Positions 61,418-63,887 of a stretch of DNA of 64,000 bases are shown in pieces. Position numbers and translations under genes: made by a program. This DNA comes from an uncultured Erythrobacter sp. GTDB lineage: Bacteria; Pseudomonadota; Alphaproteobacteria; Sphingomonadales; Sphingomonadaceae. The stretch covers positions 496,001 through 560,000 of the forward strand of contig NZ_CANMZM010000002.1 of NCBI RefSeq assembly GCF_947502395.1, written 5' to 3'. The first letter of the stretch is position 1; every line of letters starts with the position of its first letter. A model generated the notes under the pieces. That model was not told the origin of the DNA. It saw nothing but the letters and a program-made list of their open reading frames with translations, and made no database searches.

Positions 61418-63403
61418 TTAGGTGACCAAATCCGGCGCCGTCGCCGCTTTGGTCAGCATCGCAATCGCCTCATCAAGCGAGAGAACCTTCTGATCCTTTT
61501 CACCCAGAGTGCGGATTGCAACCGTACCCTCTTCCTCTTCGCGCTTACCCACGATCAAGAGGTGCGGGACTTTAGCCAGTGAGTGCTCGCGGATCTTGTA
61601 GTTGATTTTCTCATTGCGAAGATCGCTGGAAGCGCGAATGCCAGCCGCTTCCAGCTTGGTCAGCACACGGTTCGCATAGCCATCTACGTCTGAGACAATC
61701 GGCGCCACGACTGCCTGCATCGGCGCAAGCCATACGGGCAGACGGCCTGCAAAATGCTCGATCAATATGCCGATGAAGCGCTCATATGACCCGAAGATCG
61801 CGCGGTGCAGCATGACGGGGCGGTGCTTCTCACCATCCTCGCCAATGTAGGTCGCATCCAAGCGATCCGGCAGCACGCGGTCCGATTGGATCGTGCCCAC
61901 CTGCCACGTGCGCCCAATCGCATCCGTGAGGTGCCATTCCAGCTTTGGCGCATAAAACGCGCCCTCGCCGGGGAGCTCCTCCCATTCGAGGCCATTGGCG
62001 GTTAGCGCATCGCGCAGTTCTTGCTCCGCCTTGTCCCAATCCGCGTCCGAGCCAAAGCGTTGCTCAGGCCGCAGAGCGAGCTTGATTTTATACTCAAAGC
62101 CAAAGTCGCGGTAGACCTCGTCAGCAAGCGTGATGAAGGCTTGGACCTCTTCGACAACTTGATCTTCGGTGCAGAAGATATGGGCATCGTCCTGCGTAAA
62201 CTGGCGCACGCGCATCAATCCGTGGAGCGCGCCGTGCGGCTCGTTGCGGTGACAGCAACCCATCTCACCCAGCCGGATCGGCAGATCGCGGTAGGACGTG
62301 ATGCCCTGCTTAAAAACCAGAACGTGCGCGGGGCAGTTCATCGGTTTTAGAGCCATCCAATCGGCATCCTTGGAGATGATGTCGCCTTCATCCTCGGTGT
62401 TGGGCACCTCATCAGGGATGACGAACATATTCTCGCGGTACTTGCCCCAGTGGCCCGACTGTTCCCATTGGCGCGCGTCCATCACCTGCGGCGTCTTGAT
62501 CTCGCGGTAGCCAGCGCCGTCCATCTTGCGGCGCATGTACGCCTCAAGCTCACGCCAGATGCGATAGCCCTTGGGGTGCCAGAACACGGACCCATGCGCC
62601 TCTTCCTGAAGGTGGAACAGGTCCATCTCGCGGCCAAGCTTGCGGTGGTCGCGTTTGCCTGCTTCCTCAAGATTATGAAGGTGCTGCTTAAGCTGCTTCT
62701 TGTTCAGCCACGCGGTGCCGTAGATGCGCGTGAGCTGCGCATTGCGTTGGTCGCCGCGCCAATAAGCGCCAGCGGTCCGCATAAGCTTGAAGGCTTGCGG
62801 GTCAAGTTTCCCGGTGCTCGCCAAGTGCGGCCCGCGGCACATATCGAGCCAGTCATCGCCCGACCAATAGACCGTCAAATCCTCGCCCTCTGGCAGTTCC
62901 TTGGCCCACTCAGCCTTAAACGCTTCGCCCTCGGTTTCCCACTTGGCGATGAGGTCATTGCGCGACCAAACTTCGCGACGCAGCGGTTTGTCCGCTTTGA
63001 TGATCTCGCGCATCTTCTCTTCGATGGCCGGCAAGTCTTCGAGGCCAAAGGGCTCACGCGTGGCCGGCGCCATCACGTCGTAATAGAAGCCATCATCGGT
63101 GGCAGGACCAAAGGTGATCTGCGTGCCGGGCCAAAGCGCCTGAACTGCCTCTGCCAGAATATGCGCAAAGTCATGGCGCACCAGTTCAAGCGCGTCCGCC
63201 TCATCCTTGGAGGTGATCAGCGCCAGCTCGCTATCTCCCTCGAAAGGACGGCCAATATCGCGCACTTCGCCGTTCACGCGCGCGGCAAGAGCGGCCTTGG
63301 CAAGGCCCGGGCCGATAGCGGCAGCGACATCATACGGCGTGCTACCCGCTTCCATCTCGCGCACAGAGCCATCGGGAAGGCTGATCTTAAGCAGTTCGGT
63401 CAT
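61418..63403 (-). CDS. thrS: Threonyl-tRNA synthetase
   Basis: A 661-residue class II synthetase. An N-terminal TGS domain (about 1-62) leads to an editing domain with [18 protein letters not shown] (His77, His81). The catalytic core has the zinc ligand Cys357 in MNCPAH, then [32 protein letters not shown]. The C-terminal anticodon domain contains RRxEE-style segments ([17 protein letters not shown]). The ATG at 63403 is used; a GTG one codon upstream is possible. Its 200-base leader encodes a Thr-run peptide and an attenuator-like structure. tauE follows after 3 bp. Confidence 0.96.
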
Positions 63404-63450
63404 CACAAGTATCCGTCTCGTTTGACGCGCGCCTTAGGACATGATGGCGC

Positions 63451-63468
63451 ACACCGGAAGAGCGGTGT
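63451..63468 (-). other. Second hairpin in the thrS leader
   Basis: acaccg (63451-63456) and cggtgt (63463-63468) around six bases, 48 bases before the thrS ATG. It could help control initiation or be incidental. It lies downstream of the attenuator candidate. Confidence 0.4.
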
Positions 63469-63501
63469 TTGAGTGTTTAACCGATTTCAAGGAGGACACC
63501 G

Positions 63502-63524
63502 CGCCACCCTGAAACCGGGTGGCG
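63502..63524 (-). terminator. Attenuator hairpin (3:4 stem) in the thrS leader
   Basis: On the minus strand CGCCACCC pairs with GGGTGGCG around seven bases (complement of 63517-63524 and 63502-63509), an 8-bp GC-rich stem starting 12 bases after the leader-peptide stop. No T-run follows, so termination would be Rho-dependent or inefficient, or the stem may act on translation. Its upstream arm (CCGCCACCC) can alternatively pair with GGGGGCGG (complement of 63551-63558) inside the leader ORF. Confidence 0.6.
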
Positions 63525-63535
63525 GATGGTCTGGC

Positions 63536-63607
63536 TCAACCCAGCAACAACCGCCCCCGGAGATCCGAGGTGGTAGTTGTTGTTGTCGTGGTCAGCAGCT
63601 TGGCCAT
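63536..63607 (-). CDS. Threonine-run leader peptide of thrS
   Basis: An ATG at 63607 opens a 23-residue frame: MAKLL, then eight consecutive Thr codons (ACC ACG ACA ACA ACA ACT ACC ACC), then SDLRGRLLLG and TGA. It lies on the thrS strand, ending 132 bases before the thrS ATG. The Thr codons contain CAACAAC, which can pair with GTTGTTG (complement of 63545-63551 region) late in the same ORF, blocking the antiterminator. A weak TTGG lies before the ATG. Eight Thr in a row in a short ORF before thrS is very unlikely to be chance. No database comparison was possible. Confidence 0.8.
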   Translation of the reverse strand: MAKLLTTTTTTTTSDLRGRLLLG

Positions 63608-63681
63608 ATGCGCCAAATAGGGGCCCCGAGTTAACAAGTCACCCCCTTAGTTGATGAAACACAGCACAGAGAGCAAATCTA

Positions 63682-63698
63682 CTTTCCACTATGGAAAG
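63682..63698. promoter_or_regulatory. CTTTCCA-CTA-TGGAAAG palindrome between thrS leader and small membrane gene
   Basis: A perfect 7+7 inverted repeat with a 3-base centre, 12 bases before the ATG at 63711. It would overlap the promoter or ribosome-binding region of the small membrane-protein unit and could be an operator. Its distance from the leader ATG (about 75 bases) also permits an effect on thrS transcription. Confidence 0.45.
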
Positions 63699-63710
63699 GA
63701 CACTTGACCA

Positions 63711-63887
63711 ATGACCATGATATTCAAAGCGCTCATCTGGGCCGGGATAATCATTGCCACCGCGTTTTATCTGAACGGCATTGGCATGAGCCAAGGCGCA
63801 AGCTGGGGCATCACGTCGGGGCTCGCAGGCGCTGCCTGGGGTTCGATCTATGGCGGGCATAGGCCTTGCGCGGGCGAGTGCGCATGA
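63711..63887 (+). CDS. Small two-span membrane protein
   Basis: A 58-residue protein: hydrophobic N-terminus (MIFKALIWAGIIIATAFYL), a short polar loop and a Gly/Ala-rich second segment (WGITSGLAGAAWGSIYGG), ending HRPCAGECA with two Cys. No family recognised. GGA before the ATG is a weak ribosome-binding site. Its stop overlaps the next start (TGATG), so a small operon begins here, with a palindrome upstream. Confidence 0.6.
   Translation: MTMIFKALIWAGIIIATAFYLNGIGMSQGASWGITSGLAGAAWGSIYGGHRPCAGECA

Follow-up and report, generated by a model that had tools for sequence, protein, structure and literature searches.

The region directly upstream of thrS in this Erythrobacter genome is probably a ribosome-mediated attenuator, a regulatory device of a known kind attached to an unusual target. 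In the 64,000-nucleotide stretch of DNA analysed here (the window), a threonine-rich leader peptide is followed by a series of competing RNA folds that, together with the leader, probably raise the output of threonyl-tRNA synthetase when charged tRNA for threonine is low. The initial annotation had proposed attenuation by a leader and a 2:3/3:4 switch; both parts are supported, but the description was incomplete, since two further pairings (4:5′ and 5:6) lie downstream, a candidate promoter abuts the leader ATG and the hairpins have no T-run behind them. The 23-codon ORF with eight adjacent Thr codons that it placed on the thrS strand is confirmed at 63607–63536 of the minus strand. The gene and the leader are arranged as follows:

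61418–63403, minus strand: thrS, threonyl-tRNA synthetase; the name fits the translation and homologues were found
63536–63607, minus strand: leader ORF MAKLLTTTTTTTTSDLRGRLLLG plus stop, 23 codons; kept in relatives
63569–63592, minus strand: eight adjacent Thr codons in the leader sequence, the regulatory codons, which hold region 1 (CAACAACAAC)

The thrS reading frame begins with an ATG at 63403 and has an in-frame GTG at 63406 of the minus strand. A divergent ORF (MTMIFKALIWAGIIIATAFYL...) adjoins the attenuator at 63711–63887 of the plus strand and, if it is a gene, transcription of thrS must begin inside the intergenic region.

We compared the 400 nt upstream of thrS with 3000 dinucleotide-preserving shuffles. 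The eight Thr found within 10 residues of an ATG-initiated ORF were matched by none of the 3000 shuffles, which reached a maximum of 5, and among 318 pieces of the window (400 nt, both strands) the only one to reach eight Thr is the piece that holds the leader itself. Six consecutive ACN triplets occur at just two places in the genome, the thrS leader and a Ser/Thr/Gly-rich low-complexity stretch. The latter, the genome's sole other run of this kind, consists of repeats at L244 1370–2000. Being short and repetitive, the Thr run might be taken for a chance triplet repeat without function, but this can hardly be entertained for a run that is conserved across genera with different codons and at a fixed distance from the promoter described next.

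A candidate distal promoter, P1, abuts the leader:

63637–63642, minus strand: −35 element of P1 (GTGACT), with conserved spacing to the −10
63614–63619, minus strand: −10 element of P1 (TATTTG), ending 6 nt ahead of the leader start codon, with transcription predicted to begin at 63607

Because TATTTG ends 6 nt before the ATG, transcription is predicted to start at the A of the start codon. The same pattern, a TGAC- or TTGA-type −35 with a TANNNN −10, stands just upstream of the ATG in 86/89 leaders, with a −10-to-ATG distance of 7 nt in 43, 6 nt in 29, 8 nt in 12 and 9 nt in 2, compared with 27/2061 ATGs in the window and 83/4450 shuffled 60-mers. The three leaders that lack a match are those of L005, L032 and L183, and on reading the sequences we found that the latter two match before an earlier in-frame ATG. 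Since P1 abuts the ATG, the mRNA from which the leader is translated is probably leaderless. P1, as judged from its sequence, lies upstream of both the leader and thrS, so that a shared transcript would carry the two.

To follow the leader through relatives, we collected the sequence preceding thrS across widening taxonomic ranges (genus, family, further families of the order, class and phylum), and counted a locus as having a Thr-rich leader when a short ORF held at least five Thr in 10 residues. Within the genus, where 34 of 37 genomes were matched and 32 distinct loci scanned, 30 loci have such a leader, the window's own included. Across the family the count is 33/106, one of which is false (L173, the tail of an upstream gene), and among named loci with enough sequence it is 35/79, or 26/70 once duplicates are removed; the genus, family and named-locus sets overlap, and L144, which is too short, was left out of the last two. 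By genus, the named loci give 9/11 for Erythrobacter, 9/16 for Novosphingobium, 3/3 for Croceicoccus and 2/2 for Qipengyuania, and no Thr-rich leader in the named loci of Sphingomonas (0/7), Sphingobium (0/5), Sphingopyxis (0/3) or Aurantiacibacter (0/3). Outside the family but within the order, upstream regions came from 18 of 24 matched genomes, and L041 alone has six Thr in 10; its ORF was rejected as a Thr leader because it lies far upstream and is not leader-like. In the wider Pseudomonadota (98/100 genomes matched), none of 26 further upstream regions scanned reaches five Thr in 10.

The codons of the leaders indicate what has been conserved. All four Thr codons are used (ACC 368, ACT 127, ACG 114, ACA 41), and across codons 6–13 of related leaders differences are 2.7 times as frequent at third positions as at either of the other two, whereas in region 2, the RNA segment described below, the corresponding ratio is 0.64. 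These ratios indicate that what is conserved is the protein in the Thr run and the RNA in region 2. The leader set excludes L006, in which the frame is shifted, and L107, L157, L173, L220 and L228, in which the ORF found is not the leader. Conservation and codon-position statistics thus bear out the expectation that the Thr-run ORF would be conserved in Sphingomonadales, in a subset of the family.

Several individual loci depart from the common arrangement. L006 has a leader with seven Thr codons, but an extra G, which brings a stretch of region 2 to six consecutive G, shifts the frame so that the usual stop is missed. L015 and L084 retain the leader and P1 and have lost regions 3 to 6, the leader stop adjoining the P2 region (see below); judged by sequence, this is a natural loss of the switch. 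On reading, L016 and L078 retain a P1-like promoter and the P2 element, and the Thr leader is lost. A long GC-rich inverted repeat lies within the thrS leader region of L028/L153 and of L095 and is perhaps a small mobile element.

The RNA segments that can pair with one another extend from the Thr codons to well past the leader stop:

63551–63560, minus strand: region 2, CCGGGGGCGG, located by 2:3 pairing counts
63545–63551, minus strand: region 2b, GTTGTTG, pairing with region 1 in the free-transcript fold of this one sequence
63515–63525, minus strand: region 3, CCGCCaCCCGG, common to 2:3 and 3:4, located by pairing counts
63502–63509, minus strand: region 4, GGGTGGCG, of the 3:4 hairpin, located by pairing counts
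63507–63516, minus strand: 5′ arm of the additional pairing 4:5′ (GGTTTCAGGG), from covariation
63496–63502, minus strand: region 5, GCGGTGT, pairing with region 6, from covariation
63483–63492, minus strand: region 5′ (CCTTGAAATC), the 3′ arm of 4:5′, from covariation
63462–63468, minus strand: region 6, ACACCGC, with a weak CTCTTCC-like tail after it, from covariation

The three pairings claimed in the initial annotation are all present in the window. Region 1 CAACAAC is complementary to GTTGTTG; region 2 CCGGGGGCGG pairs with CCGCC-a-CCCGG over 10 bp around a single bulged base (−19.0 kcal/mol, ViennaRNA); and CGCCACCC pairs with GGGTGGCG over 8 bp to form the 3:4 hairpin (−17.0 kcal/mol, ViennaRNA). 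We counted paired and doubly changed cells in a structure alignment of 86 loci, from which L015, L028, L095 and L183 were also left out, which does not contain L066 and which includes L075, a doubtful leader. L075 thus enters the covariation, slid-control and pairing-probability counts, and it was left out of the 87-leader stall count, the codon statistics and the P1 count. For 3:4, 93.5% of cells are paired with 19 double-change cells (shuffle maximum 14), and slid partners reach at most 59% paired and 9 double-change cells. For 2:3, 93.0% of cells are paired, where shuffles reach at most 92.6%, and 10 are double-change cells, where shuffles reach at most 6; its slid partners are at most 54% paired, yet one slide has 12 double-change cells against the 10 observed. 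The expected stem covariation was therefore found for 3:4, above both shuffled and slid controls, and is weak for 2:3, which exceeds the shuffled controls only, as follows from region 3 having two partners. The two pairings are mutually exclusive and conserved, as an attenuator requires, with this weakness in the covariation of 2:3.

The two downstream pairings, which are new here and by comparison of sequences lengthen the switch, vary more. For 4:5′, 82.0% of cells are paired and 54 are double-change cells (shuffle maximum 34), with slid partners at most 60% paired and at most 28 double-change cells; examples in relatives are TTACCGGG with CCCGGTAA in L060 and TTTGAGGG with CCCTCAAA in L002. 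For 5:6, 83.5% are paired with 90 double-change cells (shuffle maximum 52), which occur at 7/7 pairs. All slid controls are at or below 66% paired. Because the segments follow one another in the order 4, 5, 5′, 6, the 4:5′ and 5:6 helices cross and must be alternatives or form a pseudoknot. RNAalifold run on the whole alignment recovers only parts of 3:4 and 5:6, so we defined the helices by hand from L009 before counting them, a procedure that favours the named helices over their slid versions. Since the shuffles also ignore relatedness among the loci, we take the covariation as strong indications, short of formal proof.

To model the effect of a ribosome on these folds, we masked the RNA upstream of a placed ribosome, folded the remainder and counted a pair as formed when its probability exceeded 0.5. 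With the ribosome in the middle of the Thr run, region 2 pairs beyond the stop in 86/87 leaders, compared with 43/87 in ribosome-free RNA. The 2:3 pairing forms at 46/86 loci in the stalled state and 0/86 with the ribosome at the stop, a placement that by design keeps region 2 from pairing, whereas 3:4 forms at 24/86 when stalled and 62/86 at the stop. The corresponding counts for 4:5′ are 22/86 and 8/86, and those for 5:6 are 25/86 and 28/86, no change. For the window sequence (L001), the stalled fold combines a shortened, five-pair 2:3 with a 12-bp 4:5′ stem, and the terminating fold contains 3:4. Masked folding thus behaves as had been proposed, with a stalled ribosome freeing region 2 and disfavouring 3:4. 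The model supports the 2:3/3:4 switch, weakly supports a contribution of 4:5′ and shows no regulation of 5:6.

Taken together, the leader and its folds suggest the following sequence of events. Transcription from P1 would start at the leader AUG or only a few bases away from it. With Thr-tRNA(Thr) in good supply, a ribosome would reach the leader stop and mask region 2, allowing 3:4 to form; region 5′ would then be free and 5:6 permitted, and the transcript would end ahead of thrS. If Thr-tRNA runs short, the ribosome would instead stall in the Thr run and mask region 1, so that region 2 takes region 3. Formation of 2:3 would free region 4 to pair with 5′ and preclude 3:4, and 4:5′, unless accommodated in a pseudoknot, would preclude 5:6, so that RNA polymerase could read into thrS.

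A scan of 63380–63800 gave no T-run after any hairpin and no terminator-like site. The 3:4 hairpin proposed as the terminator is present, but with no U-tract following it is not a standard one, and because the other hairpins also lack a T-run, we infer premature termination as the output of the attenuator by analogy. An intrinsic terminator in the usual sense, a GC hairpin with a U-tract, is therefore absent, which is not strictly disqualifying, given that the leuA and thrS leaders of Streptomyces lividans are reported, in the accessible text of PMC8079986, without a typical one.

The missing U-tract after 3:4 and 5:6, together with the extension of conserved pairings to about 60 nt before the thrS start, could also mean that the folds act on thrS translation initiation or on mRNA processing rather than on transcription termination. 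We consider this unlikely: by reading, we noticed no conserved pairing with the thrS start region, Rho-dependent termination would also be possible, and the version of the leader found in another family (f72, below) has an inverted repeat followed by T6.

Between the attenuator and thrS lies a second conserved element:

63431–63460, minus strand: promoter-like element P2 (CTT, 16 nt, TRTGN or equivalent, TAAGGC/CATGGC), with fixed spacing

TRTGN is the extended −10 promoter consensus. A TNTGNCA core stands just upstream of thrS at 64/89 leader loci, 63 of which have CTT exactly 16 nt before it, and at 19/118 loci that lack the leader, 13 of which have CTT at 16 (L006, with its frame-shifted leader, is among the 13). 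The register is held at 83/89 leader loci, with TG and C at position 1 of the −10 in 67 and no TG and T in 13, although the score used to choose the register favours TG and C/T, and the T-state loci are mostly close relatives. These alternative states resemble those of extended −10 promoters. P2 is probably a second promoter, one that would supply a basal level of thrS independent of the attenuator, its predicted start near 63424 lying downstream of it. A thrS start downstream of 63536 had been named as an observation that would refute attenuation; P2 predicts such a start, from sequence alone, and it is the main caveat to full control of thrS by the attenuator.

How much of thrS expression P2 would account for decides the weight of the attenuator. 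The leader may work as described while most thrS mRNA comes from P2, the attenuator adding a starvation-induced share or carrying minor weight, and we regard this as a serious possibility, only slightly less probable than its negation. In its favour, besides the alternative states and a spacing conserved in both leader and some leader-less loci, the element is kept in leader-less L063, L107 and L176, where reading frames of 274 to 478 codons reach to 2–7 nt before the CTT, so that another gene apparently lies just ahead of thrS and P2 is kept nonetheless. Against it, the −10 (CATGGC or TAAGGC) and the −35 (CTT) are poor, and the strict motif matches at 24 sites across 119 genomes, of which 14 lie at thrS, where a reversed control pattern has 16 matches; by this count P2 is not a general promoter. 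In addition, the sequences flanking P2 can form a GC hairpin, with matched arms scoring 17.2, slightly above their shuffled partners (16.1, maximum 17.0). A purely RNA hairpin at P2 was considered and is weakened as an explanation by the fixed linear spacing, the stem register differing by eye in three sequences.

That the region might contain an operator of the E. coli type, a tRNA mimic bound by ThrRS, or else a T-box is suggested by the target gene being the same and by a U-G-U in the loop of the possible P2 hairpin. We consider either very improbable. The whole window has no match at gathering score among 4227 Rfam families, T-box and Thr-operon leader included, and no mimic of the tRNA-Thr anticodon arm with G35-U36 was found at the 72 leader loci compared. 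A mimic of the anticodon at P2 was rejected because the base at the G35 position varies at these loci (G 84%, C 10%, A 5%). The conservation observed is explained by the leader and its promoter.

Attenuation by a Thr leader remains our preferred reading, and similar leaders occur at thrS elsewhere in the class. From 131 matched genomes, 88 upstream regions entered the Thr scan and 87 the promoter scan. At least five Thr in 10 were found only in L266, L268 and L271, and the search for a promoter with a leaderless short ORF found three cases, among them the Thr-rich ORFs of both L268 and L271. L266 was rejected as a further Thr leader, being the one such case among 30 loci scanned in its family (39 genomes matched). 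In family f72, by contrast, seven of 10 thrS loci have Thr-rich leaders (for example MTYPTTATMTTTTTRCGGP, MTARTTTTATTTRTSCGGP and MNYRAITTATTTTTRSGGPEGARVR), and a GC-rich inverted repeat followed by T6 could be read in the sequence of six of these seven (L343 being the exception); the site in L339 was missed by a simple terminator scan. The hairpin that precedes the T6 in L271 has a folding energy of about −19 kcal/mol, and GGAGGGTC in the leader is complementary to the 5′ arm of the hairpin, GACCCTCC. The f72 leaders thus help the analogy with termination.

Family f73 (L268 and L404–L432) presents a less certain case. By reading, 29/30 loci, all but L428, have a short ORF ending in Arg-Thr-stop about 120–210 nt upstream of thrS, often directly after a CTAT-type −10, but only 13/30 reach four Thr in 10 residues. 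The ORF may represent a third type of thrS attenuator; as evidence for a Thr leader it is suggestive only.

Regulation of a synthetase gene by codons for its own amino acid has precedents. E. coli pheST is controlled by the leader peptide PheM, which shares with the thrS leader the use of cognate codons and differs from it in having Phe codons and a U-rich terminator. Control of thrS itself takes other forms, a tRNA-mimicking operator that senses through ThrRS in E. coli and a T-box responding to uncharged tRNA in Firmicutes, neither of which involves a leader peptide. Our literature search found no Thr-run leader at an alphaproteobacterial thrS, and Lopatovskaya et al. 2010, which reportedly deals with attenuation of amino acid and aminoacyl-tRNA operons, may list thrS cases. 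In the accessible portion of Naville and Gautheret 2010, the sole mention of threonyl-tRNA synthetase is of E. coli autoregulation.

Leader control of thrS, which had been suggested not to be standard textbook material, is not wholly unprecedented. According to the accessible text of PMC8079986, a thrL-thrS arrangement reported from transcriptome annotation has been proposed in S. lividans TK24, with a leaderless Thr leader peptide before thrS, one hairpin and, as here, no uridine-rich tail; it has two Thr codons in MKRVRPFLETTPGFVPAR where the Erythrobacter leader has eight, and it belongs to another phylum. Within the Alphaproteobacteria, the trpL-trpE(G) system of Sinorhizobium meliloti likewise has a leaderless sORF and a ribosome-dependent switch, but it uses Trp codons, controls a biosynthetic gene and has a terminator that releases the sRNA rnTrpL (PMC7298713 and PMC10117765, from the portions available). 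A leader CDS also precedes a synthetase gene in Caulobacter crescentus, trpS rather than thrS, in the part of PMC4117421 at hand.

We hold the most complete reading of these results only tentatively, as possible but rather less than probable in all its parts. It would comprise a relay of pairings 1:2, 2:3, 3:4, 4:5′ and 5:6 that alternate along a chain, with 4:5′ and 5:6 as a possible H-type pseudoknot; a leaderless mRNA; termination that needs no U-tract, immediately ahead of a second thrS promoter; and Thr leaders at thrS in at least two alphaproteobacterial families and perhaps a third, possibly of repeated origin. The Erythrobacter leader is unusually clean, with eight Thr codons, a start codon lying at, or close to, the predicted 5′ end and conserved competing stems, and would lend itself well to studies of leaderless attenuation and of termination that lacks a U-tract. 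With thrS here apparently controlled by translation of codons for its own amino acid, and kin designs found in other alphaproteobacterial families, one gene can be traced through several unrelated sensing systems.
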